A DNA stretch of 64,000 bases, taken from Cloeon dipterum (Eukaryota; Arthropoda; Insecta; Ephemeroptera; Baetidae). Location: contig NC_088787.1 of assembly GCF_949628265.1 (NCBI RefSeq), forward strand, positions 35,700,844 through 35,764,843, read 5' to 3'. Below are positions 7,203 to 39,580 of the stretch, one piece after another. Numbering within the stretch: position 1 is the stretch's first letter; every line of letters starts with the position of its first letter. Position numbers and translations under genes: made by a program. Below the pieces are notes generated by a model. It had not been told where the DNA came from. It was given only the letters and a program-made list of their open reading frames with translations, and ran no database searches.

Positions 7203-9238
7203 ATGCTGGTCGTCCTGTGTATGATGATACTCCTGCTGCAATCGGTTTGTATAAATTAAATCTAAAAATTGTAACAAATGAAAATTTTACTTTAGCAAGC
7301 AGACTCGAAGACGATACGAGTCAAGTCTTCCGGAAAGATTTCATTGAATTGTAAGAAATTATATTTTTTTCTTAGATTTCAACTCTACATTAACTGAAAG
7401 TTGTATATCAGCAGAGGAGAAGCACAATCATAAAATGTTGCGGGAATGTAAGGTGCCTGGGTAACCGCCCAGTTCTTTCAAAGGTGAGAATAATTATTAA
7501 ATTAACCACAGGATTTTGTGAATTTAATTATAAGGCTCTAGTTTCATACAAACTTAAAAATAAAACATTCCTGATTTTATGTCTCGCCTCTTCTGTTGGC
7601 AATTTCAAACATGATGAAATTATTTTAATTTTAGCTCAAAAATACGACAAATGCAGAGGTCCTATCAAAAATTTCATCGCAATCTTCACCGAGTATAATC
7701 AAGAAAACAACCGTCGGAACGGATGTGACGTCGGACAATGCCGCAGAAGCAAATTTGGACACGTCGCCCTCGTCGTTTGACCCTACTGATGTCGGAGGGA
7801 AAACCATTTCTTCGGCTCCAAGTGCGTCATCAACCAAAAGCTTGACAGGAACAGCCGCAGGATCAACAACGGTGGTGGCAAGAGCGTCAACAGCCGCAGG
7901 AGCAACAACAGCCGCAGGAGCAACAACGGCGGCTGGACAGCCAACGACGGCCGGAGCAACAACAGCCGCAGGAGCGTCAACGGTCGCAGGAGCAACAACA
8001 GCCGCAGGAGCAACAACGGCGGCTGGACAGCCAACGACGGCCGGAGCAACAACAGCCGCAGGAGCGTCAACGGCCGCAGGAGCAACAACAGCCGCAGGAG
8101 CGTCAACGGCCGCAGGAGCAACAACAGCCGCAGGAGCGTCAACGGCCGCAGGAGCAACAACAGCCGCAGGAGCGTCAACGGCCGCAGGAGCAACAACAGC
8201 CGCCGGAGCGTCAACGGCCGCAGGAGCAACAACAGCCGCCGGAGAGTCAACAGCCGCAGGAGCAACAACGGCGGCTGGACGGTCAACGGAAGCCGGAGCA
8301 ACAACAGCCGCAGGAGAGTCAACAGCCGCAGGAGCAACAACCACGACTGCAACTCAAGAAGGTGTGGTTTCATCGGAAGGAACTGCAACAACAGGATCGA
8401 CTACAACTGCTATACCAACAACAACAACCACAGTAATTTAAAATATCTAGCTCTACACGAATTAATTTTTTATATTAAACCCGCAAATCACATTAATTTT
8501 AAATGTTTCGGAGGGAAATAATAAATAAATTCTTAGCAGCCTTGCGTCAGTGGTTTCGACAGAACGTGCCGGCCCGAACCAACGTGCAAAGTGGATGTAA
8601 GAATTTTTTTAAATAAATCTCCAATTTTATTATCCTGCTTCAAAACCAGACCGTTGCTGTGAGCTCTCTTAAATTAATTGGGAGCAGTAAGAATTAAATT
8701 ATCCGAATTAATAAATCCTATAAAATCAAATTTACAGCCTTGGACGGCGAAATGGTAACGACCGGGAACGGCAAAAAATACTTCATGGGATCCGACAACA
8801 ATGTAAAATTCTGAATATTTTAAAAATTTACGGCGAAATAAAATGTCTAATGGTTTTAGGGTCTGACTTACGACGTTGCCGCCGCAGTTTGTTGCAAACT
8901 AGGAATGAAACTTGCCGAATTCCCCACGATCGCCAGCTGGAACAACTTTCTCGACTACTTTAAACGTACATTTTTCGACCTTTCGAAAGTGGAAATTATT
9001 AATAAAAAAAAATGCAGCCCTGACTTTCTCCAGCTGGGACTACATCGGGCAAACGACCGACAATGGCAACAACACCGACACGTGGTGCGGCTCCGGCACT
9101 CTGGTCCCTGACGGAATCATTCCCGCCGATCTGTACAACATTTCGTGCGGCACCAAGAACCTGATCGTGCTCACTCCGGGAGGGAATCTCACCTACATCA
9201 ACCCTCAAAAAAGTATCCACCGCTACTTCTGCGAGTAG
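7203..9238 (+). CDS. Secreted mucin-like C-type lectin 2 (9 exons, 488 aa)
   Basis: Exons: 7203-7244, 7296-7350, 7401-7483, 7635-8432, 8537-8596, 8650-8686, 8738-8802, 8860-8965, 9018-9238, with the same phases as gene 1. Signal peptide, CCGNVRCLGN domain, mucin tract (residues about 61-326, dominated by alternating ATTAAG and ASTAAG units), three-Cys linker, then a lectin domain (about 359-488) ending HRYFCE. The first three exons, their introns and the start of exon 4 are base-for-base the same as gene 1 (7128-7723 against 2835-3430), while the 3' half differs at many sites, which points to gene conversion or a very recent exchange. A TATA-like box lies at 7146-7154; AATAAA follows the stop. 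No classical calcium-site motif is visible. Confidence 0.88.
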
Positions 9239-11983: not shown

Positions 11984-14578
11984 ATGCTGGTCGTGCTGTG
12001 TTTGGTGATAATCCTGCTGCAATCGGTTTGTATATTAAATTTAAAAATTGTAACAAATGCAAAAATTTTACTTCAGCAAACCAACTCGAAGACGATAAGA
12101 ATCAAGTCTCCCGGAAAGATCTCATTGCATAGTAAGAAATGAAATTTTATTTTTTCTAAAACCTAATTCTTCTGCAACTGAAAGTTGTATATCAGCAGCA
12201 GAGGAGAGACATGATCATTAGGTGTTGCGGGAATGTAAGGTGCCTGGGGAATCGCACAATTCTTTCAAAGGTGAGAATAATTATTAAATTAACCACAGAA
12301 TAATAAGGCTCTAGTTTCATACAAATTTTTAAAAAAAAATATGTTTCTTATTTTATGTATCACCTTCTGGTTGCAATTTCAAACATTATGAAATTATTTT
12401 AATTTTAGCCCAAAAAAACGACCAAAGCAGTGGTCCTAACAAAAGTTTCATCGAAATCTTCACCAAAAATAATCAAGACAACAACAGTCGGATCGGATGT
12501 GACGAACAATGCCGCAGAATCTAATTTGGACACAACGCCCTCGTTGATTGACACCACAGATGTCGGAGAAAATACCATTTCTTCGGCTCCAAGTGCGTCA
12601 TCAACTAATAGCTTGACAGAAACAGCCGCAGGAGCAACAACGGTGGCTGAAGGGTCGACGGCGGCCGAAGCAACAACGGCCGCAAAAGCAACAACGGCGG
12701 CTGAAGGGTCGACGGCGGCCGAAGCAATAACAGCCGCAGGAGCATCAACGGCGGCCGAAACAACAACGGTGGCCGAAGTAACAACAGCTGCAGAAGCGTC
12801 AATAGCTGCAGGAGCAACAACGGCCGCAAAAGCAACAACGGCGGCTGAAGGGTTGACGTCGGCTGAAGCAATAACAGCCGCAGGAGCAAGAACGGCGGCC
12901 GAAGCAACAACAGCTGCAATAACAACCACAGCCACTAAAACAACAATCACCGCTAAAACAACAACAGCTGCAATAACAACAACGGCCGCTAAAGCAACAA
13001 CTGCCACCAAGGCAACAACAGCTGCAACAACAACAACAGCCGTTAAAACAACAACAGCTGCTAAAACAACAACGGCCGCTAAAACAGCAACCACCGCCAA
13101 GGCAACAACAGCTGCAATAACAACAACAGCTGCTAAAGCAACAACAGCCACCAAGGCAACAACAGCTGCAACAACAACAACAGCCGTTAAAACAACAACA
13201 GCTGCTAAAACAACAACAACTACCAAGGCAACAACAGCAACAACAACCGTTAAAACAACAACCACCGCTAAAGCAACCACAACTACGAAGGCAACAACAG
13301 CTGCAACAACACCAACAGCCGTGAAAACAACAACAGCTGCTACAACAACAACAACCACCACCAAGGCAATAAAAGCTGCAATAACAACAACAGCTGCTAA
13401 AACAACAACAACCACCAAGGCGACAACAGCTGCAACAACAACAACAGCCATTAAAACAACAACCACCACTAAAGCAACAACAACCACCGCTAAAGCAACC
13501 ACAACCACCAAGGCAACAACAACAACAACAGCCATTAAAACAACAACCACCGCTAAAGCAACAACAACCACCAAGGCAACAACAGCTGCAACAACAACAG
13601 CGGCAGTTAAAACAACAACCACCACTCAAGCAACAACAACAACAGCTGTTAAAACAACAACCACCGCTAAAGCAACCACAACCACCAAAGCAACAACGGC
13701 AACCCCGACAAAGTCGACAACAACTGCTCTACCAACAACAACAACCACTGTAATTTCAAACTTGTAGCTATGCACACAATGTTTTTTTTTTAAATTTTTT
13801 TAAATTCATCCTCTGTGATTTTAAAAATTTTTTGAACGAGATACTAAATAAATTCTTACCAGTCTTGCGTCAGAGCTCTCGACAGAGCGTGCCGGCCGGA
13901 ACCAACGTGCCAAGTGGACGTGAGAAACACAAAATTAAAAAATATACTCCTTTTATCTCATTATTATCCTGCTTCAAAACTAGACAATGGCTGTGAAAGC
14001 TCTTAAATTGACTGGCAAGGGTAAGAATTAAATTATCTGAATTATTAAATCAAATTAAAACAAATTAACAGCCTTGGACGGCGAAATGGTAACGACCGGG
14101 AACGGCAAAAAATACTTCACGGGCTTTGAACAAAATGTAAAACTCTAATTCTTTTAATAATATAAGACGAAATAAAATTTCTAATAATGGTTTTAGGGTC
14201 TGGTGTACGACGTTGCCACCACAAATTGTTGCAAACTAGGAATGAAACTTGCCGAATTCACCACGATCGCCAGCTGGAACAACTTTCTCGCCTACTTCAA
14301 ACGTACATTTTTCGTCCTTTCAAAGGTGGAAATTAATTTTTTAAAAAATAAATGCAGCCCAAACCTTCTCCAGCTGGGACTACTTCGGACAAACGAAGGA
14401 CAACGGCAACAAAACAGACACGTGGTGCTTCTCCCGCACTCTGGTACCCAGCGGAATCATTCCCGCGTACATGTACAACATTCCGTGCGGCACCAAGAAC
14501 CTGATCGTGCTCACCCCGGGAGGAAATCTCACCTACATCAACCCTGCAAATTATATCCACCGCTACTTCTGCGAGTAG
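11984..14578 (+). CDS. Secreted mucin-like C-type lectin 3, long stalk (9 exons, 669 aa)
   Basis: Exons: 11984-12025, 12077-12131, 12185-12270, 12409-13749, 13863-13919, 13984-14020, 14072-14136, 14197-14302, 14358-14578. Layout matches genes 1, 2 and 4. The stalk exon is the longest of the four (447 codons) and has two zones: an Ala/Glu-rich zone (AEATTAAE type, acidic) and then a Lys/Thr-rich zone (KTTTTTKATTA type), so charge swings along the stalk. The Cys motif CCGNVRCLGN and the lectin domain (about 540-669; CCKLGMKLAEF, closing HRYFCE) are kept. No EPN/QPD/WND motif is seen. AATAAA follows the stop. A secreted, heavily O-glycosylated recognition protein is the best inference. Confidence 0.87.
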
Positions 14579-16493: not shown

Positions 16494-18269
16494 ATGCTGG
16501 TCGTGCCGTGTTTGGTGATAATCCTGCTGCAATCGGTTTGTATATTAAATTTTAAAATTGTAACAAATGCAAATTTTACTTTAGCAAACCGACTCGAAGA
16601 CGTTAAGAGTCAAGTCTCGCGGAAAGATTTCATTGAATTGTAAGAAATTAAATTTTATTTTTTTCTAATAACTCAATTCTACAGTTAACTAAAAGTTGTG
16701 TATCAGCAGCAGAGGAGAGACATGATCATTAGGTGTTGCGGAAATGTTAGGTGCCTGGGGAATCTCACAATTCTTTCAAAGGTGATACAAAAATTATTAA
16801 ATTACCACGCAGCCCTAGGATTTTATGAATTTAAGGCTCTTGTAAAGTAGAAATTAAAAAAATTACCTTCTGGTGGCAATTGAAAACGTTTCATCAGATT
16901 AGTTTAATTTTAGCTCAATCACACGACAAATGCAGAGGTCCTATCAAAAATTTCATCGGAATCTTCACCGAGTTTACTCAAGACAACAACAGTTGGATCG
17001 GATGTGACGACGAACAATGCCGCAGAATTGAATTTGGACACAACACCCTCATCGTTTGACCCTGGAAAAACCATTTCTTCGGCTCCAAGTGCGTCATCAA
17101 CTAATAGCTTGACAGGAACAGCCGCAGGAACTACAACAACAGCTGCAGGAACAACAACAGCCGCAAGGACAACAACAGCCGCAGGGACAACAACAGCCGC
17201 AGGGACAACCACAGCTGCAAGGACAACAACAACCGCAGGGACAACAACAACCGCAGGGACAACCACAGCTGCAAGGACAACAACAACCGCAGGGACAACA
17301 ACAACCGCAGGGACAACCACAGCTGCAAGGACAACAACAGCCACCGGAGGGGCAACAACCACGACTGCAACTCAACAAGGTGTGGTTTCATCAGAAAGAA
17401 CTGCAACAACAGGGTCGACAACAACTGCTATACCGACAACAACAACCACAGTAATTTAAAATGTCTATTAGCTATGCACAAATTGATTTTTAAATTTATT
17501 AAAATTAAACCCGTGATGAATCACACAAATTTTATAAATTTTTGGAACGAGATTCTAAATAAATTATTACCAGTCTTGCGTCAGAGCTTTCGACAGAGCG
17601 TGCCGGCCCGAACCAACGTGTAGCGTGGATGTAAGAATTTGTATATTACACCTATAATTTCATTATCCTGCTTCAAAACCAGGCCGTTGCTGTGAGCTCT
17701 CTTCAATTAACAGGAAAAAGTAGAAATTAAATTTTCTGAATTATTAAATTAGACAAAAACAAATTTACAGCCTTGGAAGGCGAAATGGTATCGACCGGGA
17801 ACGGCAAAAAATACTTTATGGGATCCGTCAACAATGTAAAATTCTGAATATTTTAAAAATTTACAGCGAAATAAAATAAGTTGGTTTTAGGGTCTGACGT
17901 ACGACGTTGCCGCCGCAGTTTGTTGCAAACTAGGAATGAAACTTGCCGAATTCACCACGATCGCCAGCTGGAACAACTTTCTCGCCTACTTCAAACGTAC
18001 ATTTTTCGCCCTTTCCAAAGTGGAAATTTATTTTAAAAATAAATGCAGTCCAAACCTTCGCCAGCTGGGACTATTTCGGGCAAACGACCAACAACGGCAA
18101 CAACACGGACACGTGGTGCTTCTCCGGCACTTTGGTCCCTGACGGAATCATTCCCGCCGATCTGTACAACATTCCGTGCGGCACCAAGAACCTAATCGTG
18201 CTCACCCCGGGAGGGAGTCTCACCTACATCAACCCTGCAAATTATATCCACCGCTACTACTGCGAGTAG
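16494..18269 (+). CDS. Secreted mucin-like C-type lectin 4, short stalk (9 exons, 401 aa)
   Basis: Exons: 16494-16535, 16585-16639, 16696-16781, 16914-17450, 17574-17630, 17683-17719, 17771-17835, 17891-17996, 18049-18269. Same architecture and phases as genes 1-3. The stalk exon is the shortest (179 codons) and uses RTTTAAGTT-type units, so it is Arg/Thr-rich rather than Ala/Gly or Lys-rich. The lectin domain spans about 272-401 and closes HRYYCE. The splice donor after exon 6 reads gtagaa, weaker than in the paralogues. AATAAA lies about 35 bp after the stop. Confidence 0.86.
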
Positions 18270-20086: not shown

Positions 20087-21267
20087 ATGCAGCTTGTTCC
20101 TTGTTTCTTCCTGGTAATTTTTCTTTCGGCGACTGCGACGAAAGGCTCGAGTTGCTCCAGTTGCGACTGCGAGTGCGTCAAACAACAAGACGCTTCGTGA
20201 GTATAAAAATATTATTTCTGACTCTCGAGATAATTTTGCGCCGCAAAACAGGATTGGCCAAATTTTGAGAGCTTTGGACAGTGAGGAAGTCGCAATCTCC
20301 AAATCGATCTTCAACTTGACGAAAACCCAAAGCCAATTACCAAAAGTAGGGCGTTAAGAGATTTTTTTTTAAAACATACTCTTGATGCTTATTAATTTCA
20401 TTTTAATTAGGAATTCAATCAGTTAAAGGCTCAGATGGAAGGGGACAAGGAGCAAATCTTAGGAAAGGTAGTTTAATTTGTCAAATCCAAAGATTAAAAA
20501 TCTAAAATTAATTTAATAAGCTCGACACCGTGATGGCAGAACTGGAAGCCGTGAAAAAGCAGCAAAATGAGAACTCGGTTAGCTGTTAATTAAATTAAAT
20601 CGAATTAAACTATAAATCAACAAATTTTCCAGGCGTTGAAGAGCCGTATCTGCGAGCTGACCCGTAAGTAAATTTAATTTCTTCTAATTCTAAAAATTAA
20701 AATAATATTCATCTAGGTGTGAATCTAACAACGCTGCAAAATAAGAAATATTTTTTCTCCAACATCTCGGTAAAGTCTAAAATTTAATTTCTTCACATTC
20801 ATTCTTATAAAAATCAATCTTTCAAGGTGAACTGGTACGATGCGAATAATTTCTGCAAAAGCAAACTGATGACTTTGGCCGCTGCCAAGACCGAAAACGA
20901 GCTCAAACTCATTCGCGATAAGGGACTGGAATTGAACCCAAGTAATAATATTTCCCTGATTTATCACGCGACGAATTTAAAATTTCCCTTTTCCTCGTCA
21001 GCCGCTCGTTGGTGGTTGTCCGCTTCCGACATTGGACGGCCGGCCGGCGACTTTGCGTGGCACGACGGCACACTTTTGCCCGCGACCAGTTCTTTGTGGG
21101 ACAAACGCAACGGCCAGCCAAATGTGTTCCGGGCTGGACAAGAAACCTGCGTGTTCCTGCACTTCGAAACTGTCGCCCTCAAGCTCTTTGATTCTATGTG
21201 CAAGACGAAAATTATTAATTTTGTCTGCGAGCTGCCTGCTGAAAGCAATCACTGCTATGAAGAGTGA
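20087..21267 (+). CDS. Secreted coiled-coil C-type lectin (8 exons, 260 aa)
   Basis: Exons: 20087-20196, 20252-20345, 20411-20467, 20521-20577, 20633-20663, 20717-20769, 20827-20941, 21002-21267. Signal peptide of about 20 residues, Cys cluster SCSSCDCECVKQ, amphipathic helical stalk over exons 2-5 (likely oligomerising coiled coil), then a C-type lectin domain (about residues 130-260) with VNWYDANNFCKSK, WLSASDIG, FAWHDGT, a GQPN sequence where EPN/QPD normally lies, and closing NFVCE. The WND triplet is not present, so calcium-dependent sugar binding is uncertain. The 60-bp intron 7 happens to contain no stop in frame, so retention would still give an open frame. A clip of initiator-like TCAGT lies near 19975. 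Confidence 0.87.
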
Positions 21268-24859: not shown

Positions 24860-25853
24860 TCGCCGAAAGATTAAGAGAATTTGAGCCACAAAATATGTGA
24901 TTTCTTCTTGACGAAAGCAGGTAAAGTGCGAGTGGAAAAGATTCGACAGCCTTTTATTGCAGTTCTAAGGAAAAATGAACCATTAAAAAGAGAGGAAATT
25001 CGTGGTTAATTTGGTCAGTTTAATTAAAAATTTGACTGTAAGGAAAACTTGGCAAGTTATTTGATTGCAATAAGACCGCGGCAACCCCATTTCTATAAGG
25101 AAAATATCCATTAAAGAAAGAATTGTTATTTTAATTGTAAGGGAAAACTCTGCAAGTATGTGGCGACGATAAGACCGCGGCAACGCGGCAACCACATTTT
25201 ATGATAAAATAATTTGATTGTATTTTCTTAGGTCATTTTCAGTCGCTTAATTCGGAAAACCTGAGAGGTTGAAGAACTCCCTGGTTTAGAAAAAAAATTA
25301 AAAATTTTGAATTGAAGCTCTTTTCTACTAAAAAATAATTTTTGTTTCCGGAAAAAACCCAGGGCTAAAAATATTTTCCTTTATATCATGCGCACTTCTC
25401 TTATATTATGTTTATATTGTTTTGGCGGGAAAAAAGTTCGTTGGACTTTTTGGTCGGCAAAAATATCCAATTTACCTAAATCGACCCTCAAGAATCGATT
25501 GGTGTGCTAAAAAAACTTAGTCTTTAAGTGCAAACGTCTAAATATAAAATTCTGACAAGAAAAAAAATCAATAGGCCCCATTCTGGCTGCTTGCATCAAA
25601 AGGGTTAGCAACATGTACCCCAAGCATTTTGTTTCTTTCCTCCTGCTGGCATTCCTAATGAAAAGATCGCAGAAAATTGAAAAAAAAAATATTCTGCATC
25701 TGGTGGATGAACCATTGATTAAAAATAATATTTATTTTCAAATCTCGTCCGATTGTGAGTATCGGAATAAAACGACGGCGGCGCATGCAGCAAAGAGGAG
25801 CAGCAGGATGGAGAAGAAAAATGAAACGAAAGACGCGCGTGGCGCGGCCGCCA
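24860..25853. other. Upstream flank of the broken lectin copy and left flank of the large transposon
   Basis: 24890-25060 resembles the promoter regions at 42730-42860 and 46280-46460 (shared gtgcgagtggaaaa), marking it as the 5' flank of a lectin copy. 25410-25520 is another foldback-MITE fragment. No gene is seen. Confidence 0.55.
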
Positions 25854-25864
25854 CACACACAAAA

Positions 25865-26095
25865 AAAAATCTCTATCTGAGACACTTTTGGTGTCTCTAA
25901 TTGAGACACTTTGAAAAATGTTTCAAACTGAGATACTTTTCGGAGGAAACGTCTCAGTTTGAAACACTTTCCGAAGAAGTGTCTCAGATTGAAACGCTTT
26001 CCGAAGAAGTGTCTCAGATTGAAACGCTTTCCGAAGAAGTGTCTCAGATTGAAACGCCTTCCGAAAATGTGTCTCAGATTGAAACACTGATATGA
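25865..26095. repeat. Subterminal 33-bp repeat array (left)
   Basis: Five or so tandem copies of a 33-bp unit with the cores gtctcagattgaaacgc and ttccgaagaa, plus variant outer units. The mirrored array is at 35944-36174. Arrays at this place are transposase-binding sites in CACTA elements; that role here is inferred. The minus/plus 64-residue frame through it is a by-product of the repeat. Confidence 0.8.
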
Positions 26096-26192
26096 TAAAT
26101 TGCTGTTTAAAACGTTTAATACATACTTATATACAAATCACTCACCTGAATTTTTCTCAAATAGGACACTCTAGTCAGCTCAAGCTGATAAG

Positions 26193-26232
26193 GTAAAAAG
26201 CGTCTCCTCTCGCTGCGAGAGATGCTTTTTAC
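26193..26232. repeat. Hairpin in the left arm
   Basis: gtaaaaagcgtctc and gagatgctttttac are near-perfect inverted arms (one mismatch), with an inner ctctcg/cgagag pairing. The same hairpin is at 35807-35846 in the right arm. It could be a protein-binding site or an RNA structure. Confidence 0.65.
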
Positions 26233-27449
26233 AGCCGCGCTGGCTCTCGGCCGTAGTTTCGTCGCCGGTATTGCAGACTTTTCTGCAATTTCGCCGATTT
26301 CTGTGCTTTGCGGACATCGTGTGTAGTGCTTAGCACGTCGTGTGTTATTGTTTTTACAAGCTGTTAATCACGATAGGCAACCAAACACGACAATTGCAGC
26401 TGGACTGAGCATAGTTCTGCGCGTGGGAGTTTAACAAAAACGGGGTGGTAAGGTAATGCCGTTTCAACTCAAGACAATATATTTTTTATTACTCGCCGTG
26501 CAAGTTTGAAGGATTTGGGTCATAATTTTCATTTTCCTTGCTGGAGTCACCAATAAAATTTCATCTCCCCTCTTCCAACTATCTAGGTTGGCCAAACTTC
26601 TTTTGTCTTAAAAACAAATCAGCTGGCACCAATTGTTGACATGATGAGAGACATGATTTTTATTTCACCTTCTAATCTTTTATTGTGTTGCGATATTTCA
26701 GTTTTCAGAAGTTGTATTCAAAAAGAGGACAGTAAGTAGTATAATTTTCTTTTCATTTATTTATTAAATGATGATGTAATGTATTAAATAATTAAATTTA
26801 GACAGGTGCAATCGAGTACATAAGTGTGGATGGAGCCTGAACCTTTAGGAAACTGCCAGGGATTTTGTCATCATGCCCAAGAGCCTTGAGCCGGTGGTGT
26901 TGATACGTATCATACGTGGCTGTCTATGCTGAACCGGCTGCCCACCAAGCCGAAGAACTAGAAGCTTTTGGCGGCTCAAAAGCCATGTTTTAGGTACGTT
27001 AAGATATTCCTGCCATTCCCGTTATGGTAAAGTTACAGTTTCTGCCGGGTTACACATCTCGCCAGTTCTTACGAAAATCACATGTAAAAGTAGGGGTGGC
27101 GAAAACTGTAACTCGGCGGCGAAAACTGTAGCTTTTCCATAACAACTATAGACTGTTGGATGATCGGATGACCCCGGCTAGCAGGCCGTCTCGCCTGTCT
27201 AACGTTTTCCCTTCACCAAATTTTATACTCTTATAAATTACAAAACCCAAATGTTTTTTTCCTTTTTTCTTTTTAAAATTTCGCGTACCATTGGTTCAAT
27301 GAAAGTGTAGTCCTATATTTGAGCAAATTATATAGAAGGAAGCTTGGTTCTCAATTTGAATATTAATTGATTTCAAATGATTCTAAACTCGTCATTAACA
27401 AGTAACCCTTTGCAGGAGTAACTTGAAGCAGGCGTTTTAATTGTGCCAG

Positions 27450-27995
27450 TGGAGAGACGGCAGACAACGCGAGCTTAGCACATGTCATGCTGACCGAGCT
27501 GCTGATCATGACAATGCCTCCCAGGAAGGTGCGTTCGTTGACTTATACTACTCGTAATGCCAATTTCCATTATGTTTTTTTGCAGAGAGCTGTATATACC
27601 TGGTCCAGAACCTGAACTGCGACGAGCCCTGCTCCACACATGCATCTTTCGTATACGAAGAAATGCTTGAGCCAGCCCATTACACGTCGGCCAAGCCAAG
27701 CCAAGGACAAGCTGATGCTCACTCTGGTGTGGCGGTGAGCGGTATCTTTGGCGGCAGCGTGCCAACTTTGGAGCTTGAAATGTTGGAGGACCACGCTGCT
27801 GGGGCGCAACACAGCGTGGCGCCGCCCGTAAACGCCTTGCTGCAGGCGGCGACGACACGGGGTGGGGAGCATGGCGCCTCGGTCGGCGCCGCAACTCGTA
27901 CCGCTGGCCGTATATTTATCAGACTGCCCAAGTTCTTCCTCGACCATGCAGAGATAGCCCTCTGCTCCCCCCAACTCGGACAGCAGCATAATTAG
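27450..27995 (+). CDS. Uncharacterised frame in left arm (2 exons visible, 5' end unknown)
   Basis: A GC-rich stretch in otherwise AT-rich arm sequence. Exons 27450-27528 and 27586-27995 join in phase across a GT/AG intron and give STCHADRAADHDNASQEE followed by SCIYLVQNLNCDEPCSTHAS and a tail ending QLGQQHN. Cys spacing in the first part looks protein-like; the rest is low-complexity Ala/Gly. No start codon or upstream exon was identified, and the opposite strand is also open (27570-27989). It may be a captured host gene fragment, a third transposon gene duplicated by the arms, or noncoding. Confidence 0.3.
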
Positions 27996-28506
27996 ACAGT
28001 GCTAAACTTTTAAAACTCGCTCGACTACTCGTATATGTGCTCGAGTATAGATCATCACTTAACTAAATTTAAAAATGCATGTAAATTCGACAGAAAAATA
28101 TTAAAATGAAAAATTGAAGTGAAATAATCATTTGGTTTTTTAGGTAAACTTGGCACAAGTTTTAATCTTCTATAAAATTATTGCAGACTGCCGTAAATGA
28201 TTCCTTGTCGTATCAATCCATTTTATTTATCAACTCTCAGTCGCAAATACAAAACTGTATTAAAAAATACTAATATTATGGAGTGTATATGATAATTGAG
28301 ATGTTGCACTTTACGAAGAATAACTTTTTTTATTGTTAGGAACTTTGGTAATCAGCTTATCAAATCAAATAACATTGCATAGTTAGACATATCAAAGTTT
28401 TATTTTAACACACTTTTTATATACATAAAATACATTCGTCTGTTTTAAATGTTCTATTGAATTGCCACTGCACTCTCTTAGGTTTTACTATGACATCAGA
28501 ATCAAA

Positions 28507-30958
28507 CTAACCAATGAATTCATTTCGGCTATGATATTGAAGAATTACAAGTAATTTCCCTTTGTAGCTGATGATGGGTAGTGGATGAAGGAACGCAATT
28601 TTGTCTGACATAGTTGATCCAAAGAGATTGGTTTTTTCAACTTCGTAACAGTTATTTATTTGATTGAAGCAAACAGTGCTTAATTTATTGAGCACAAAAT
28701 TGCAGCTTGTTCCCTTGACAAAAATGGCTTTGACCATTCCAAAAGTGGGCAGTTCATCAACTGGATTGGAGAGCAACAGAATTGAGCAAGGCTTGATTTC
28801 AAAGTTTTGCAAGAACACTTTGTCTACCGAGCTGACGGTGCTATCATTTATGCTGATTTTGAATTCTTGAGCTACCTGGGAACCAAGATAGTATCCATTC
28901 AGATCAATAATCTGGGCACCCACTGGCAGGAACGTTTTCTCTCCTAAAACTGCAGCACCCTCATCACAAAATTGAAAGTCGATGACTTTTTTAACCTGGA
29001 ACCTGGTTGCCAAAGTTTTGGGGATGTTTACAAAGTTCCTTGTTTGTTCTCCCACCCTTGATGCCCAAGCGTTCAATGCTTCATACCGCATTGTCCAAGA
29101 GACTCTAATTGGGCCCAATTGCTCAATGACTGATGGTGTGTGCACTAAGAAGTGGAATTTGGGCGTGATATTGAAATTGGGAAACAATTTAACGTATCTC
29201 ATGTGGTGGGTTTTAATCATTAATCGTGCCATCTCGAGGTCACACTTGTCTACTTCATAGGCCATAAGGATGTTCCCAATTTTTCCCAACAAAGAGAAAT
29301 TCAGAAGGTGATCAACAGCTGATGAGTCTTTGGCAAACGACTCGAGAACAATTGGGATGATGTAAAGTAAACATAGCATTTGGCTGGCATTCTGCCTTAA
29401 TTTTCCCTGCAAAATATGCCCTCTGTCAATCGTTGAAGGCTTGCAATGAGCAAATTGTTCAGGGTATGGGAAACAGGCCAGCAAATTATTTAATTGGTCA
29501 AAGGTAAGAAGCTTTTGCTCCTCAACAAGTTCATAAATCAGTGCCCTCAGTTCCACTTCTTCCGCTCCTTCCATCAAATTGTGCATAAGGTCCTGTGGGA
29601 GGTTTTTTGTGACATCAAAGTTGGGTAATATGGAAAGAACAGAGTCCCCGTTAATGCCCAAATTTTTGCTAATTTCCCTAATTTCCGCAGCCGATTTGTT
29701 CTCGCTCTGTAACAGCTTCAAACTCTCCCTGTGAGATTCGAGGTTTCTAAGATTGTGTTCATCAAAGTCAAATTTTATTTGATCTCTAGACAAGTGGCAG
29801 TTCCGACAAGGCTTTAAGGAAAAGCCAATCCCCTTAAAGCCCCCCATGCTGTTCAGAGCGAGCCCGTCGCCATTTACTGAAAGCAATGTTCCGTGGATAG
29901 CCAGGGTTTCCCCACTATTCAATTGCAGTTCCAGACCTTCGGGTGACTCTAACTTGGCCAAGCAATCAAAAAAGTCTGAGAGAACCGCCTGAAAACCGTA
30001 CTCTTTAACATTCTCTGCTAAAACAACGCCACATAGGTTGAGCGCTTTCAAATTTGAGCGCATGTGTTCAGGGAAATTTAAAATCGACCAATATATTAAT
30101 GTGACTTTGTTTACTTTTGTGTGAGAGCCAAGAGGGTTGCACAACTCTACGTCATCTTGATACAACTGAAGTATCAAGGCGTTCTCATAGGTTTGACAAA
30201 TGGGATTTTCTTTGACAAAGCTACCATCATATACGCTTCGGATAACACCGTCAGTACTAGGTTTGACTTTTGAATTCAAAATTAAATCTCTGGTTTCCTT
30301 GAAATCAAAGATTTTGATGAGCTGCTTCACAAGTGGAACATACACAGCCATAATTGATTTTCTGACGAGTGCGTCACCTTTTTTGACATGATGATGCCCA
30401 ATTTCTATGGCCTGTGGTGCCACGTACCCGTAGTGCAGTTTCAAATTCTTCATGATGCGGTACTCGGTTGAGACATCGATCAACGGATCATTCAATAGAA
30501 CTCGCTTTGATTCCTTCGCAAATCTCTCTGCAGTTTCAGGGTCTGTTTTCCTCAAATTGTCCTGAAAGAGGGCAACAGATAAGACAATGTGAAGTATATT
30601 CTAATATTAAAATACGGGGGGCGTGCAAGGATTTCCTGAATCAATTATTGGTTTTTACGTTACACACCTTTCTGAATATTTTAATATCTTAAAAACGATA
30701 GTAATATTTAAAAAAATTAATCTCTAAAGTAGCAGCTGAATTGGAATTATATTTTTTATTTGGAGTTACTCATTGAAGTTAATTTTAATACATTTTTGTT
30801 GTTATTACCTCTACGATTTTGACGAAAGAGTCCAACATTTTATTGTAAGAGGAATTGAGGACGCCGATGCCACCAAGGCTCATTCCGTGCTCTTCTCTTA
30901 ATCGTACGATGGTCTCAAGGGCATCACGGCCCAGCGGACTGAGCTCATTATTGTCCAT
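28507..30958 (-). CDS. Transposase-like protein of the large transposon (2 exons, 734 aa)
   Basis: Exon 1 30809-30958, exon 2 28507-30561, joined in phase 0 across a GT/AG intron. Starts MDNNELSPLGRDALETIV. The body carries a CRNCHLSRDQ zinc-like motif, NGDGLALNSMGGFKG, a PQDLMHNLMEGAEEVELRAL stretch, and PKFHFLVHTPSVI followed by GPIRVSWTMRYEALNAW. That pattern (conserved His/Asp positions, a K-x-HFL-x-H-x-P block, then a W-x-MRxE block) is one I associate with large transposon-encoded proteins in animals and loosely with the region next to CACTA TNP2 transposases; exact family assignment is inference. It is the only large frame in the element and is uninterrupted. It is divergent from the 31235 gene, with a 276-bp shared promoter region. 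Confidence 0.75.
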
Positions 30959-31234
30959 CTTGAAAGGTTGTTACGCTTTACGCTCACAAAAACATTATTA
31001 TATGCAGGCTCAGCCCAGTTATCGCAATAGGAAGTGCCAACGTGTAAAACCGGAGTGTGTTAAATTCACTTTTGTTTCTTTTGGGGTACTAATAGGCTAA
31101 TAAATCAAATAACAATTTGAAGCGGTTGGTATCATTGTTTCAATGGTTTTTTCTTCGCGCTCGCTTCACACAAGCATGCTTTTTTTAGTCTTGGGAGTTG
31201 TTTTTGTTACCGCCTATATAAACAAAATAGCAAA
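30959..31234. promoter_or_regulatory. Bidirectional promoter region of the large transposon
   Basis: The 276 bp between the two divergent start codons. A TATA-like cctatataaa lies about 15-25 bp before the plus-strand start; no clear box was seen for the minus gene. Confidence 0.5.
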
Positions 31235-33536
31235 ATGGATTATTCAATCGGAGAAAGATTTTTTGCATTAGATCTTGACCTTGCAGATCGACCTGCGAAG
31301 ATCCCAGTTTCGATCAACTCAACTTGTAACCCAGGAAAATCAGAATTCTTGTTGCTGCAGAGTGCATTTGATGAAATCTGCAAGGGAGACCCAAGACTTA
31401 GCAAAAAGTTGAATACCCATTTTCCTATCTTTTTATTTGATCACCCTAAGCTAGGGGAAATGCAATTAACCTCATCCATGAGAATGCTGCCCAACGTCGA
31501 TATCTTCAGGGTACGATTCGCATTCAGGGAATCTCCTATCAGAGCGGCAGCCGACGTACCTAGTACTTCAGTCAGTATATTATAAATAAACACAATTTAG
31601 AGAGTTATGCATGTTTTAATTCTGGGATTGATTTCAGTCTTCTTTTGAAGCACAAAAATCATCTAGCAGCAGATGCATTAGCTCTGGTTTTGATGAAATG
31701 GACAATAGTTCTACGCAACCCATTCTCATTGAATTTAGTTCAGCTGCTTACGAAGAGGATGGAATTGGGTATTTGGTATGAAAAATGTTTTTTGTTAATT
31801 ATAAATTATGCAATAATGCGCTAAACAATTGAACTCCATGCGTCATCATTATATTTTATATGTAAGATACATACAATAAGAACGTGATACAAATTTTGAA
31901 ACTTATTTCATTCATAAAGAAGGTTAATCATAATTAAAATTTTTACAGAGTCCAAACGTTCCCCAAGTAGAATTTGTCGATGTTCCTGAAGTTGATCAAC
32001 CAAACTTGGTTGTGGCACCTGCTGCGTCAGCTTCGTCTCTTGGAAAGGACCGGAGAGTATTAGCAATAGAGGATATCACTATGCCCACATTGACAGCTGA
32101 AGTGCAAGAAATGATTGAGACTGGAAAGATGCTGCACAACTCATCTAAATTTATTAAAATCGTTAGCCTCCATCTCCTGTCACTAAAACAGCAACCAACC
32201 CCCAAAGACTACCAAACCTATGTATCCTTTCTACTCAAAACCTATCCAAATATCATGAATAGTGATATCCATGCTAAAAATGATGAAGATTTCGCTTCTC
32301 TGAAGGTTATCAAACTTATTTTACAATAAGAAAAATACTATAATATTTACTTTTTATATAACAGAGAGTCTTGGCTAAGACAATCAGCACCTTTGTTCGA
32401 AACTACAGGCATCGAGTAATCAAAGGCAACAGCCTGGTGACAGATGATGACCGTCAAAGAGGCTCAATTGTTGCAGTCCTCCAAAGAGATACAAATGGTG
32501 GCAAAAAGAGGTGAGTTTATTCAAATAATTATTAATGCTTTCTAATAGTTAAGTATTTAATCATTTGGCAGAAAATCCAATGAAAAGGATGACGTTGGTT
32601 CCCCGATTGAGAAGAAACAATTAGGTGAGGATGGAGCAACCACAAATATTCATGGGCAAGGTATATATTGATAAGTCCATATTCAAAATGTGTTCTAGAA
32701 AAGTGATAAAAAATTTATGTTGCTAGAAGAAAGAGATGACATTTTGCATTTCCTGAAAGTGAAGGATGCTGATGCACACAAAATTGTTGAGTTGCTACCT
32801 TCCTGTTTTGATTTTCGAAGAGAAAAGATTAAAGAATGTAGTACTGTGTTGGAAGTCGCCAACCAATATCCAATGTTGGTCAACTATGAAGTGGTATGCT
32901 ATACTAGCACTTCATTTAATAAATGAAATTTTATTGAAATAAATTGTTCCAGATCAAAGCTGAATTCTTTTTCCTATGTGGATTACCGCATTTCAAGGTT
33001 ATGGACAACTTCAACAATATGATTCTGCAACTGGGCGAAATGTTCGAGCAACCATCACAGCTGGACGGGGAGAAACTGGAGATTTTAGTTAAATTGCACA
33101 AAGAACTGGAAGACAACAAGTACGCCTCCAAAAACTACACCGCGGCGCTCAGTGTTTACCAGGTATTTTTAATATCATCATATTTAAACTTTCCCATTGA
33201 AATCGAAATGATAAACAGCTTTCTGACGATGATCTGGTATCTCCGGAAAACATCGAATCTAATGGCCCAGTCTGTGTTTGCTATGTGGATACCAAAGGAG
33301 GGATCTCAGACACCTTCCTTCTTGCAGAGGGGAGGGAATTAAACTCTGCTAAAGACTTGGACGCATTTGGAGTGTATGTGCAACTGGCAGGGGCGTACTA
33401 CTGTTTTAACAGTACATATCCACCTTATAGCAAAAATTTTTTGGACTTTCTGGATTGTGCCGTGCTCCAGAAGAAAAATAAAAATCAAGCCAAAAAATAC
33501 CTTCAATTTAAAAAGAGATTCTACGCAAAATTGTAG
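31235..33536 (+). CDS. Accessory protein of the large transposon (8 exons, 586 aa)
   Basis: Exons: 31235-31570, 31638-31775, 31949-32305, 32365-32510, 32572-32660, 32727-32893, 32953-33162, 33219-33536. All GT/AG with consistent phases. The N-terminal about 110 residues look like a compact domain (MDYSIGERFFALDLDLADRP...), followed by a Ser-rich linker, a central block with FVRNYRHRVIKGNSLVTDDD, a basic segment (GGKKRKSNEKDD) that could be a nuclear signal, and a C-terminal block (ILHFLKVKDADAHK to the stop). The overall pattern recalls uncharacterised animal proteins, some labelled SAM-domain-like, that I believe occur beside transposase-like genes. This is recollection, not a search. Likely a partner needed for transposition. 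Confidence 0.72.
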
Positions 33537-34043
33537 ATTATTTAGGTAATTTTTTGTTAATATCATCTGATGGTTGATATAAATTTTGATTCGTCTAACC
33601 TAAATAAATACACATACTAATTGTGTAAAAATATATAACAACTTGAATATGTCTAACTATGCAATGTTATTTGATTTGATAAGCTGATTACCAAAGTTCC
33701 TAACAATAAAAAAAGTTATTCTTCGTAAAGTGCAACATCTCAATTATCATATACACTCCATAATATTAGTATTTTTTAATACAGTTTTGTATTTGCGACT
33801 GAGAGTTGATAAATAAAATGGATTGATACGACAAGGAATCATTTACGGCAGTCTGCAATAATTTTATAGAAGATTAAAACTTGTGCCAAGTTTACCTAAA
33901 AAACCAAATGATTATTTCACTTCAATTTTTCATTTTAATATTTTTCTGTCGAATTTACATGCATTTTTAAATTTAGTTAAGTGATGATCTATACTCGAGC
34001 ACATATACGAGTAGTCGAGCGAGTTTTAAAAGTTTAGCACTGT

Positions 34044-34589
34044 CTAATTATGCTGCTGTCCGAGTTGGGGGGAGCAGAGGGCTATCTCTGCATGGTCGAG
34101 GAAGAACTTGGGCAGTCTGATAAATATACGGCCAGCGGTACGAGTTGCGGCGCCGACCGAGGCGCCATGCTCCCCACCCCGTGTCGTCGCCGCCTGCAGC
34201 AAGGCGTTTACGGGCGGCGCCACGCTGTGTTGCGCCCCAGCAGCGTGGTCCTCCAACATTTCAAGCTCCAAAGTTGGCACGCTGCCGCCAAAGATACCGC
34301 TCACCGCCACACCAGAGTGAGCATCAGCTTGTCCTTGGCTTGGCTTGGCCGACGTGTAATGGGCTGGCTCAAGCATTTCTTCGTATACGAAAGATGCATG
34401 TGTGGAGCAGGGCTCGTCGCAGTTCAGGTTCTGGACCAGGTATATACAGCTCTCTGCAAAAAAACATAATGGAAATTGGCATTACGAGTAGTATAAGTCA
34501 ACGAACGCACCTTCCTGGGAGGCATTGTCATGATCAGCAGCTCGGTCAGCATGACATGTGCTAAGCTCGCGTTGTCTGCCGTCTCTCCA
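34044..34589 (-). CDS. Uncharacterised frame in right arm (copy of 27450-27995)
   Basis: Mirror copy of the left-arm frame with the same two exons (34511-34589 and 34044-34453 on the minus strand), giving the same residues. Because both arms carry it, any promoter in the arm would be doubled too. Coding status is as uncertain as for the left copy. Confidence 0.3.
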
Positions 34590-35943
34590 CTGGCACAATT
34601 AAAACGCCTGCTTCAAGTTACTCCTGCAAAGGGTTACTTGTTAATGACGAGTTTAGAATCATTTGAAATCAATTAATATTCAAATTGAGAACCAAGCTTC
34701 CTTCTATATAATTTGCTCAAATATAGGACTACACTTTCATTGAACCAATGGTACGCGAAATTTTAAAAAGAAAAAAGGAAAAAAACATTTGGGTTTTGTA
34801 ATTTATAAGAGTATAAAATTTGGTGAAGGGAAAACGTTAGACAGGCGAGACGGCCTGCTAGCCGGGGTCATCCGATCATCCAACAGTCTATAGTTGTTAT
34901 GGAAAAGCTACAGTTTTCGCCGCCGAGTTACAGTTTTCGCCACCCCTACTTTTACATGTGATTTTCGTAAGAACTGGCGAGATGTGTAACCCGGCAGAAA
35001 CTGTAACTTTACCATAACGGGAATGGCAGGAATATCTTAACGTACCTAAAACATGGCTTTTGAGCCGCCAAAAGCTTCTAGTTCTTCGGCTTGGTGGGCA
35101 GCCGGTTCAGCATAGACAGCCACGTATGATACGTATCAACACCACCGGCTCAAGGCTCTTGGGCATGATGACAAAATCCCTGGCAGTTTCCTAAAGGTTC
35201 AGGCTCCATCCACACTTATGTACTCGATTGCACCTGTCTAAATTTAATTATTTAATACATTACATCATCATTTAATAAATAAATGAAAAGAAAATTATAC
35301 TACTTACTGTCCTCTTTTTGAATACAACTTCTGAAAACTGAAATATCGCAACACAATAAAAGATTAGAAGGTGAAATAAAAATCATGTCTCTCATCATGT
35401 CAACAATTGGTGCCAGCTGATTTGTTTTTAAGACAAAAGAAGTTTGGCCAACCTAGATAGTTGGAAGAGGGGAGATGAAATTTTATTGGTGACTCCAGCA
35501 AGGAAAATGAAAATTTTGACCCAAATCCTTCAAACTTGCACGGCGAGTAATAAAAAATATATTGTCTTGAGTTGAAACGGCATTACCTTACCACCCCGTT
35601 TTTGTTAAACTCCCACGCGCAGAACTATGCTCAGTCCAGCTGCAATTGTCGTGTTTGGTTGCCTATCGTGATTAACAGCTTGTAAAAACAATAACACACG
35701 ACGTGCTAAGCACTACACACGATGTCCGCAAAGCACAGAAATCGGCGAAATTGCAGAAAAGTCTGCAATACCGGCGACGAAACTACGGCCGAGAGCCAGC
35801 GCGGCTGTAAAAAGCATCTCTCGCAGCGAGAGGAGACGCTTTTTACCTTATCAGCTTGAGCTGACTAGAGTGTCCTATTTGAGAAAAATTCAGGTGAGTG
35901 ATTTGTATATAAGTATGTATTAAACGTTTTAAACAGCAATTTA

Positions 35944-36174
35944 TCATATCAGTGTTTCAATCTGAGACACATTTTCGGAAGGCGTTTCAATCTGAGACAC
36001 TTCTTCGGAAAGCGTTTCAATCTGAGACACTTCTTCGGAAAGCGTTTCAATCTGAGACACTTCTTCGGAAAGTGTTTCAAACTGAGACGTTTCCTCCGAA
36101 AAGTATCTCAGTTTGAAACATTTTTCAAAGTGTCTCAATTAGAGACACCAAAAGTGTCTCAGATAGAGATTTTT
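35944..36174. repeat. Subterminal 33-bp repeat array (right)
   Basis: Mirror of 25865-26095; the unit core reads gcgtttcaatctgagac on this strand. Confidence 0.8.
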
Positions 36175-36185
36175 TTTTGTGTGTG

Positions 36186-36776
36186 CAGCTGAAAAACACA
36201 GCAATTAAAAGCTGCAACTTTTTATCACGCCGGCAACTCTGTTCTCGCCGCTATTAGAATTAAAATCGGTTCAATATCGAACCAAATAATAGACGAAGAT
36301 TATCCCCTTTGGTGTAATCATCATTTTAAATTGAATATAGACGTGCGGATTTAATTTTTTAGAATTTTTAATAAATTACAGATTGAATAAATTTAAAAAT
36401 ATTGCTGGTGAGATGTAGATTGAATTATAGTTGAAAATAGCATTATATCTTCCAGAATTTTCCTAATAATTCTTCGATCATCGGTTAAATGTCTAATGGA
36501 CCGCATAATATATATTTTAATATTTTTCCCCTCTTTGCCGCAACACGACCGCGCTGCTCTGAAGGAAACACTCGCCATAGCTCTCCATAAACGAACTTAA
36601 TATATACATGCCTTTTTGGGGTAACAAGTGAGAAAAAACACAATAATTTGTCGAATATTACCAATGCAGTTTATTTGAAAATTAACACACGGACAGGAAA
36701 AATATCTTTTAAATATTTATCTTCATTTTGTGCTTTATAAGAAACGAAATAATTCGCATAGAAAACTGTGAGTATG
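36186..36776 (-). pseudogene. 3' remnant of a coiled-coil lectin copy
   Basis: 36440-36765 is closely similar to 44760-45085 (3' flank, 3' UTR and final codons of the intact lectin at 45057-46241), for example tgcctttttggggtaaca and gaatattaccaatgcag. Upstream exons are missing; an LTR retrotransposon begins at 36777. The matching 5' flank appears past that element at about 42730-42860, so this is the far end of a disrupted gene copy. Confidence 0.65.
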
Positions 36777-38218
36777 TGTGACCGGAATTTTCTCAAATTC
36801 GGTCACGAGAAATTATTGTTTAAAAGCGAGCAGTAAAAGCAGAGAATGATTCATATGTGTATGTCAGCAAGCACGCCTCAGAATCGTAAACGGCGGTTGA
36901 TTGTTTCTAGACGAAAAGCAAATGTCAGCTTGTGGTGCGCCGAGTTAGGATTTGGAATAAGGCAGCGCTTTATACGGAATGTAAAATACCGACTGCATTA
37001 GTGATGCTGACGGGTAGTTTTTTCGAACCCGATTAAAATTAAACAACGAGCGGGCATTAAGCAAGCATTGAGCAATACTTGAGAAAAGAGCTTCATGATA
37101 GCAGAAATTGTGCGTTCGTGTGGGAACGGGGTCATTAAGTTGTATGGAATGTGACCGGAATTTTATTGAATTCGGTCACGTGAAAACTTAATTCCCGCTC
37201 GCTCGTTGTGTAATTTTAATCGGGCTCGGAAAAAACTGTCCGTCGGCCTCAATAAGGTCTTTGGCAGTTGTTGAGCAACACTGGAAAAAATAGATGATGA
37301 TAGCAAAAATTGTGCGTGTGTGTGGGCCTGGGGTCAGTAAGTTGAATGGAATTTTTTTTGATAATGATTCAAAGGGCGTGGAGAACTGGAAAAAGGAGAG
37401 AGTGGGAAGCGAACCGATGTCGAGGGGTGCTGCGAAGACTACAGTTCAGTTCGCCGACGGACGGCAAATTGAGAATAACTCTGTGCGACAGCCAGAAGCG
37501 AAAAGAGACAAAGTGAGTGAACAAGAAGACCGGAACCGTTGGAGTGACCTGGCTGAAGAACATCCCTCGACACCCTCTCTCTCGCTTTTCCCGTGGCCTC
37601 TACTGCCCACCGATGTTTAACGAGGAAATAAAGGTCAGTCTCATTCATTAATTTTAGTTGTTTCCCTCCCCTCGCGGATCTATGTCCCTCCGTCGGAATC
37701 AAAGTCAGGGTTAGGCAGGTTAGCTCGTTAAACCAATTGGCAAATTTGTAGTAACCGAAGGCGACGCGGGTGACGCGCGGGAAAGAGAAAAAACCTTGCA
37801 ATTTTTTTCGAGTCCATTTTCGCCAATTTGGACTCGATCAAAATCGGCCGAACTCGAACAGGCGCGTCCGGGACGCGTATAGATGAAGCAGCGGGGCTTC
37901 CGGAGGAAGATATCTTACGGAGACTTGACGCGTTTTACTACGGGAACCAGGGCGGGTCGCGCGCGCGGCAACTCCGTTAACAGATATTTCGGAAGAAAGC
38001 GGGGACAATTTCCCGACGATTCATTGGGCCAATTATTACCGAGTCACGTTGAAAAGCTCAGAGGGAGATAGAAAACCAGGCGGAGCATTTAAGAACTTTT
38101 GGGCAGATCGCATTCCCAATTTAGAATAAGAGCCAATCGCGGCTCTCACGACTTTGGCAAGAGAGGGACGGGTAGCAGCAGCGCAACAAGCACAACAGAA
38201 GAGCGAGAAAACAACACG

Positions 38219-39580
38219 ATGGCAGAAAATTCAGGTACAGAACGCGCCCGGCGTTACAACGCAGCCTCGAAGCGCGTGCCCGAGTTTACGGGCAACGAGA
38301 AGGAGTCAGTAGAAGAGTATTTGCGCAAATTTAAGCATACTAAAATAATTTTCCGCCTGGATGACCAAATTGCTCTGGAGTTGCTACAGAGTAAATTGCG
38401 CGGAACTGCCGAGAGTTGGTGTATAAGGTGGATGGAGCAGGCCGAAACTGCAAAAAATGCAACTTTGGACGGGTTTATGGTCGACTTGAGAGAAGAGTTC
38501 GCGGATGCTACACGCGAGAGAAAAGCAGAGGCGAAACTCCAAGTGGTACGCCAGCGAAAGGGCGAGGGCATCATGACATTCGTAGAGAGGATGCGGAAAC
38601 TATTAGATTTGGCCGATCCGTTTATGTCCGAATCGCGGCAAGTGCGGAAAATCTATAGCGCGCTCCGCTCCGAATACTTCAAGAAAATTATTCGATGTCC
38701 AGACACCGTAAAAGACTTGGTGGCCCGAGCAAAAGAGATCGACGTGCACAGAAGCACCGCCAAAATGCGGAAGACCAAAAAGGGCGGCGGACGCGGAAAA
38801 CACCGAAATAAGAGAGATGAGAGCAGCTCCGATTCCGAATTTTCCGCGACAGAGTCATCGGACGAGGAGGACAGCGCGTCCGAAACCGACTCAGATGAAG
38901 AGGTCGACAAGAAGCGTGTGGGCAAGAAAACTTCCGCAAGAAGCACGATGAAAAAACTGGACGCGTTGCTGGCAAAATTGGAGGCCAGTGAGGAGAAGAA
39001 AGAGGTCAACGTGGTCACCGAGTGCAAGACGGGCGAAACGGGACCGATGGAAGAAATGCGAGAGTTGCGCGAGCAATTAAAGCTTATGGCCAAGCAAGTA
39101 ACGGCTGTCATTAAAATTCTGCGACTTCTGACACCTCTTGCAGCAAGCGTAGTCGAAGGCGAGGTGAAAGACAAAATACTCGGCCTTGCTCGCCAAGCGC
39201 TTGGCGGCGGTGCTGGAGGGAATAACTACCAGCCGCAGCGGCAGCCTTACCGCGGCAACAATTATTACAACAACAAAGGCGGCGGACGACGGTTCAATCC
39301 GGGACGTGGTCAGGCTTGTTACAACTGCGGATACGAGGGCCACCTTGCGCGTAGCTGCTGGCGGCGGCCGAAGAACAACAACTACTATAAGAATGGCGGC
39401 AACAACTACAACAGCGGCGACGAGGAATACCATAATCGCGGGCGAGGAACGGAAGCGAGTTATGAAGCTCCCGTCGTATGCCGAGAACTCAGGAAGAAAC
39501 ACGAGAGAATTACAACATCTCGCGGCAGAGAACGCAAAATCAAAAACTTGAAAATGGCGAACAATGGCCATCCATATTAA
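38219..39580 (+). CDS. gag: Retrotransposon Gag-like protein
   Basis: The open frame extends from 38099; the start at 38219 (MAENSGTERARRYN) is preferred because it is preceded by a favourable context and the upstream part is unlike Gag. Contains a capsid-type retrotransposon Gag domain (SVEEYLRKFKHTKI, LRGTAESWCIRWME, GEGIMTFVERMRKLLDLADP), an acidic Ser/Asp/Glu region, a short helical region, a Gly/Asn/Tyr-rich basic segment and one CCHC zinc knuckle (CYNCGYEGHLARSC). This layout is typical of Ty3/gypsy-like Gag. Part of the LTR element at 36777-42500. Confidence 0.75.
   Translation: MAENSGTERARRYNAASKRVPEFTGNEKESVEEYLRKFKHTKIIFRLDDQIALELLQSKLRGTAESWCIRWMEQAETAKNATLDGFMVDLREEFADATRERKAEAKLQVVRQRKGEGIMTFVERMRKLLDLADPFMSESRQVRKIYSALRSEYFKKIIRCPDTVKDLVARAKEIDVHRSTAKMRKTKKGGGRGKHRNKRDESSSDSEFSATESSDEEDSASETDSDEEVDKKRVGKKTSARSTMKKLDALLAKLEASEEKKEVNVVTECKTGETGPMEEMRELREQLKLMAKQVTAVIKILRLLTPLAASVVEGEVKDKILGLARQALGGGAGGNNYQPQRQPYRGNNYYNNKGGGRRFNPGRGQACYNCGYEGHLARSCWRRPKNNNYYKNGGNNYNSGDEEYHNRGRGTEASYEAPVVCRELRKKHERITTSRGRERKIKNLKMANNGHPY

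Follow-up and report, generated by a model that had tools for sequence, protein, structure and literature searches.

The question raised by this locus is what kind of element lies between two almost identical inverted arms, and how these arms have kept their identity. The window analysed here is the whole stretch of 64,000 nucleotides from Cloeon dipterum (NC_088787.1, positions 35,700,844 to 35,764,843 of the forward strand), in which a transposon of 10,332 bp with both ends present occupies positions 25854-36185. It is probable that this is a complete and recently mobile cut-and-paste transposon of the CMCT clade, and that its two arms are homogenised because one serves to repair the other.

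Organization of the element

The left arm (25854-28392, plus strand, terminus CACACACAAAAAAAAATCTC) and the right arm (33647-36185, minus strand) are terminal inverted repeats of 2,539 bp each and differ at a single base, arm position 670. The equal length and the one mismatch agree with the preliminary description of this locus, which was made from the letters of the window alone. A repeat finder gave an arm length of 2,546 bp, because its alignment extends beyond two junction mismatches. The dinucleotide CA lies just outside both ends (25852-25853 and 36186-36187), which supports the 2-bp duplication that had been suggested as possible together with CAC-type ends. The reported subterminal repeats were also found: each arm contains 4.5 copies of a 30-bp unit (25951-26085, plus strand; 35954-36088, minus strand), which is probably a binding site of the transposase or of the partner protein.

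Two divergent genes lie between the arms, and both are open, so the uninterrupted spliced pair that had been proposed holds. Gene A on the minus strand encodes the putative transposase of 734 aa in two exons (30809-30958 and 28507-30561, stop codon 28507-28509). Gene B on the plus strand (31235-33536) encodes a protein of 586 aa in eight exons (31235-31570, 31638-31775, 31949-32305, 32365-32510, 32572-32660, 32727-32893, 32953-33162 and 33219-33536), and homologous exons adjoin gene A in other subfamilies. The gene models were drawn by eye and by homology, and all eight introns (one in gene A and seven in gene B) have GT..AG borders. Judging from the gene layout, the region between the two genes (30959-31234) may be a central divergent promoter region. 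Candidate poly-A signals are located between the stop codons and the arms (28399 on the minus strand, 33603 on the plus strand), and therefore both transcripts may end ahead of the arms.

Copies and target-site duplications in the genome

The genome searched comprises 190 Mb in 10 contigs, and all copy counts are lower bounds. At least five near-identical copies (A1-A5, A1 being the window copy) were found, two on contig C1 and one each on C2 (the window copy), C4 and C5. They are 10,294-10,332 bp long with 0-8 substitutions between copies, and A2 and A3 are identical though they lie on different contigs. All five copies start with CACACACAAAAAAAAATCTC and have matching 2-bp duplications, TA on both sides in four copies and CA in the window copy. 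The central 273 bp (30962-31234) matched at the five copies and at no further place among the matches listed. Chance is excluded as an explanation because the four further copies share these ends at sites with different flanks. Full copies with different ends, which the preliminary description had named as evidence against a whole transposon, were not seen.

A matching 2-bp duplication was present in 9 of the 11 two-ended elements tested, namely A1-A5 and the more diverged B1, B2, D and F described below. This count omits E, which has duplicated flanks, and B3, S1, S3 and S4, which have one clear end only. When the flanks of A4 (C1:41691342-41701671; L013/L014) were joined with one TA, the joined sequence stayed open for about 33 codons, starting with an ATG and reaching a GT donor, and A4 appears to be inserted in the first coding exon of a candidate host gene. 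A non-autonomous derivative of 1.65 kb with A-type ends, S2, is located at L032:1249-2898 (C4:573748-575397). Taken together, the five near-identical intact copies suggest a recently mobile element and make it a candidate active CMCT transposon.

Affinity of the transposase

In gene A, D136/D137, D232, C252-x2-C255, H470-x3-H474 and E494 (exon-2 numbering) are invariant in all six aligned lineages. The gene carries the CMCT signature of C(2)C and H(3)H between the second D and the E, and the individual acidic residues are assigned as putatively catalytic from this alignment. In the passages available of one description, CMCT transposons have C(2)C and H(3-4)H motifs located between the second D and the E, mostly 5'-CA..TG-3' ends and duplications of 2-5 bp (PMC12730594). 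The 734-aa protein thus looks like a DDE transposase of this clade.

A distant protein, G1, was picked as the weakest match of the gene A genome search (27% identity). When G1 was added to the alignment, D136, both cysteines, both histidines and E494 were still invariant. The six-lineage profile matched G1 over residues 305-494 in hhalign with E 8.6e-7 and a probability of 91.5% (G1 together with a second DUF1258-like protein, G2) or E 1.2e-7 and 94.1% (G1 alone), and the controls (six G1 shuffles, one G1 reversal and protein B) gave E 0.14-0.75. G1 itself matched the Pfam family DUF1258 with E 4.1e-7, its 30.2 bits being under the cut-off of 33.1. DUF1258 corresponds to Mirage, according to the part of the source at hand (PMC3985635). 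The transposase has no direct Pfam match to DUF1258; it is linked to this family only through its profile relation to G1. The Plavaka profile PF18759 gave sub-threshold matches in three of the six members, the best of them in the lineage E (E 9.6e-5, 22.2 of 26.3 bits), and Transposase_21 (PF02992) had no match in the window protein. These results indicate that membership of the CMCT clade is well supported, while assignment to any single superfamily is not. The CACTA-type affinity proposed earlier thus stands for the wider clade (CACTA, Mirage, Chapaev, Transib, Plavaka, ESTA and Lanisha) but not for CACTA proper.

The identities KDZ and Kolobok were rejected on the 2-bp duplications and because no such Pfam family was among the matches. 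The target duplication of Kolobok is TTAA. That of Zisupton (KDZ) is 8 bp in the passage available (PMC12730594). The 586-aa partner encoded by gene B matched nothing known in Pfam, in NCBIfam (three exons) or among PDB sequences. Relatives were also sought in viral and prokaryotic collections, and none was confirmed there.

Diverged lineages with the same gene pair

Besides A, five diverged lineages (B, C, D, E and F) carry the divergent gene A/gene B pair. The genome search with gene A gave 13 matches, consisting of the five A copies, B (two), C, D, E (two rows), F and the distant G1; gene A of D contains one stop, and of the two rows of E one is a frame of 577 codons and the other a fragment that also contains one stop. 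The last exon of gene B gave 12 matches, consisting of the five A copies, B (two), the truncated copy B3, C, D, E and F. For the ratio of nonsynonymous to synonymous substitution (dN/dS) between subfamilies, synonymous sites were saturated and yielded no ratio; third codon positions were most often different (443/864 in A-B). A Maverick/Polinton-like insert, with frames that by eye resemble a polymerase, an integrase and a packaging ATPase, was observed between the two genes of the relative E (L027/L036/L037/L028; C2, ~36474k-36488k).

The left and right arms are similar to each other in each of these lineages. Their identity is 99.8% over about 2.5 kb in B, 99.6% over about 2.5 kb in C, 97.0% over about 1.1 kb in D and 99.4% over 901 bp in F. 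In E it is 97.4% over 2,574 bases, flank included, and 94.7% over a partly overlapping 1,552 bases rich in short tandem repeats. Across subfamilies, arm alignments are either patchy, with about 70-75% identity in the longer patches, or almost absent. The termini are CACTCACAG in B, CACTCACCC in C, of which the left end is damaged, CACTCAAAA in D, CACTGCAAG in F and CACACAGAA in E. CAC..GTG ends are present in A, B, D, F and E, and the CACTA core is absent at the ends, with CACAC, CACTC or CACTG in its place. Arms of such length had been called unusual at this locus; within this genome they recur in several subfamilies.

Homogenisation of the arms

Five arm variants separate copies within A or within B, and four of the five occur in both arms of the carrier copy. 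In A, the mirrored variants are a 19-bp deletion (A2 and A3) and, in A4, a 1-bp indel and a substitution (2007/8324); in B, it is a substitution between B1 and B2 (1987/8134). In the multiple alignment, the paired gaps are displaced from strict mirror symmetry by a few bases. The sole unmirrored variant is arm position 670 of A1, the window copy. When left and right arms were compared directly, A2-A5 showed zero mismatches up to the inner edge. This test of mirrored variants covers A and B, the lineages with several copies. A genome-wide repeat of about 120 bp, which by eye is like a miniature inverted-repeat transposable element (27022-27142 in the left arm, plus strand), sits at the matching register in both arms; it was found in at least 30 places outside the arms of A copies (40 of 288 first-look candidates scored), and it can serve to trace copying between arms. 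In subfamily B, an internal duplication of about 470 bp is present in both arms. Independent mutation is very unlikely to have produced these mirrored features, and copying between the arms can explain them. The preliminary description had proposed a recent insertion or a recent homogenisation; this is borne out, and four of the five variants are mirrored in both arms, so the arms are not merely young.

The copy E is different in that the shared sequence does not end at the terminus. The 540 bp outside its terminus are also present, inverted, on the other side, with one mismatch in 539. Two paralogous places on C5 (L047 and L048) match the right flank of E continuously (1,407 and 1,175 aligned bases, 91% and 82%) and match the left side only across those 540 bp, and L047 continues beyond the TA where E is inserted. 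Therefore, the right flank looks original and the left 540 bp appear to have been copied from the right. Such a footprint could be left when a break is repaired by strand invasion into the right arm, followed by synthesis in the outward direction.

The inner edges of the arms lie close to the two stop codons, at 114 and 110 bp in A, 59 and 87 bp in B1 and 14 and 52 bp in C. The right arm of F starts at the last codon of gene A (gene A side only). In E, the right arm starts about 24 bp past the gene A stop, and the left arm runs about 24 bp into the end of gene B. The conversion zone may thus be bounded by selection on the coding ends, a suggestion from small numbers with one exception. The arms look non-coding. 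A protein gene in the arms was considered and rejected: splice-like signals and open stretches were seen, but 11 of the 13 gaps in the best conserved A-B arm block break the frame. RNA families were likewise rejected, all 14 matches being of microRNA type and far under the gathering scores.

A proposed mechanism and its alternatives

In the proposed mechanism, the two genes would diverge from the central promoter region, gene A encoding the DDE transposase and gene B a partner for which the subterminal repeats may be binding sites. The transposase would cut at the 5'-CAC ends and insert the element with a 2-bp duplication, usually TA. An eroded or broken arm would then be restored via strand invasion and copying, with the opposite arm of that copy as the template. 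Inward conversion would mostly halt near the stop codons of both genes, probably because longer tracts would overwrite coding sequence and be selected against. The ends, the duplications, the gene pair, the near-identical copies, the arm variants carried by both arms and the stretch of flank on both sides of E are direct observations; we infer that gene A is catalytic, what gene B does, that the centre is a promoter, how the repair proceeds and that selection sets the boundary. More tentatively, and as something less likely than not, the lineage may carry in its second arm a ready template for repair. Almost all non-coding bases outside the genes would then be duplicated, so that the opposite end could serve to restore an end lost in a faulty excision. 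On the inner side the zone of conversion would be limited by selection on the two genes, and on the outer side, imperfectly, by the termini.

The arms could instead have been made identical during transposition, through a single-stranded or hairpin intermediate or through gap repair at the donor site, with each new insertion starting perfect. The perfect arms of four of the five A copies would be expected from this, as would the arms of B1 and B2, which are identical as far as the inner edge. Position 670 of A1, the single variant without a mirror image, resembles a later mutation. However, the shared stretch of E extends 540 bp past the terminus, which points, in this single case, to copying at a chromosomal site after insertion, and we regard homogenisation at transposition as unlikely. 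An assembly or polishing artefact, in which reads of one arm were copied onto the other, could also yield the strikingly perfect arms within copies. It would hardly leave one base different in A1 and identities of 99.6% in C, 97.0% in D, 99.4% in F and 97.4% and 94.7% in E, nor put distinct mirrored variants in distinct copies, nor let the stretch of E terminate in unrelated flanks, and it is very improbable. Long arms with two intact spliced genes could also come from host DNA, as a segmental inverted duplication that encloses two host genes, and the preliminary description had warned of this. Such an origin is already contradicted by the precise ends and 2-bp duplications at five sites whose flanks differ, by A4, which seems to split a host exon whose frame closes on removing one TA, and by the transposase signature of gene A. 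No host gene family was matched in the Pfam and NCBIfam searches, and this explanation deserves practically no credence.

Several observations weigh against the reading of a CMCT transposon with arms homogenised by repair. C, with its damaged left end, and the short derivative S2 have no matching 2-bp duplication. D breaks the edge rule, with one arm entering the 3' end of gene A and its counterpart lying beyond the gene B stop. D137 and D232 lose invariance once G1 joins the alignment, where the identity is 20% and the alignment may be off, and G2 alone gave no match in hhalign (E 0.41). Neither window protein had a meaningful Pfam match, NCBIfam gave none for exon 2 of gene A or for three exons of gene B, and the proteins matched no PDB sequences. 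The search of the genome with Transposase_21 was empty, but its 14 controls likewise matched nowhere. A single-sequence structure model of the transposase was poor, with a mean predicted local distance difference test (pLDDT) score of 33. The pre-event left flank of E, that is, the L047 sequence beyond the TA, was not found within 53 kb around E, and therefore the old left flank seems to be lost or moved.

Other features of the window

Four repeat frames that are related to each other, rich in threonine/alanine and mucin-like by eye, are located at 3342-4244, 7635-8438, 12409-13764 and 16914-17456 and are probably a tandem gene family. An exon at 20788-21264 is C-type-lectin-like by eye, and a 495-aa frame at 38093-39577 is by eye similar to a retrotransposon gag protein.

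Comparison with known systems

The element resembles the CMC/CMCT group in its C(2)C/H(3)H motif, its CAC..GTG ends and its 2-bp duplication. With plant CACTA elements, as described in the passages at hand, it shares a transposase, a second protein of unknown function and subterminal repeats (PMC8978399). In contrast, the terminal repeats in the CACTA passages available are 10-28 bp (PMC1636069, PMC4298943, PMC8978399), against near-identical arms of 0.9-2.5 kb here. The short-repeat examples in these passages are TRC of Aedes and Tribolium (PMC1636069), Spongebob in Hydra (PMC4298943) and the Chenopodium CACTA (PMC8978399). The animal TRC/SmTRC1 elements, in the portion available, also have a 2-bp duplication (7 of 14 SmTRC1 copies) and insect members, but they differ in their CCC ends, their Transposase_21 domain and the short terminal repeats of two insect members (PMC1636069).

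Within-copy identity of long arms is known from Galileo, a Drosophila element of the P superfamily. According to the passages seen, the arms of GalileoN-1 and -2 are more than 99% identical within a copy and about 7% different between copies, whereas GalileoN-4 and -5 show the opposite pattern, interpreted there as ectopic recombination (PMC2775673). Galileo differs in its transposase superfamily, its 7-bp duplication and its arms of at most 1.2 kb (PMC2775673). The same passages describe very long terminal repeats in the foldback-type element FB (PMC2775673), and Tetris is another foldback-type element; the element here differs from this type in having both genes intact and a CMCT-like transposase. 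Within the openly licensed literature, covered in part and as titles and abstract openings, no CMC/CMCT element with homogenised arms of kilobase length is described, and in that scope such arms may be new for the CMCT group.

Near-identical arms occur in six lineages of the CMCT group, against Galileo in the P superfamily. If the arms are indeed restored by repair, their homogenisation would have arisen independently, with its reach set by gene position and not by one transposase, and the E copy would be the physical footprint of an arm-repair event. The self-matching arms hint at how elements of this kind may preserve the function of both ends. With their two-gene system, the five near-identical intact copies provide a directly testable candidate active CMCT transposon.

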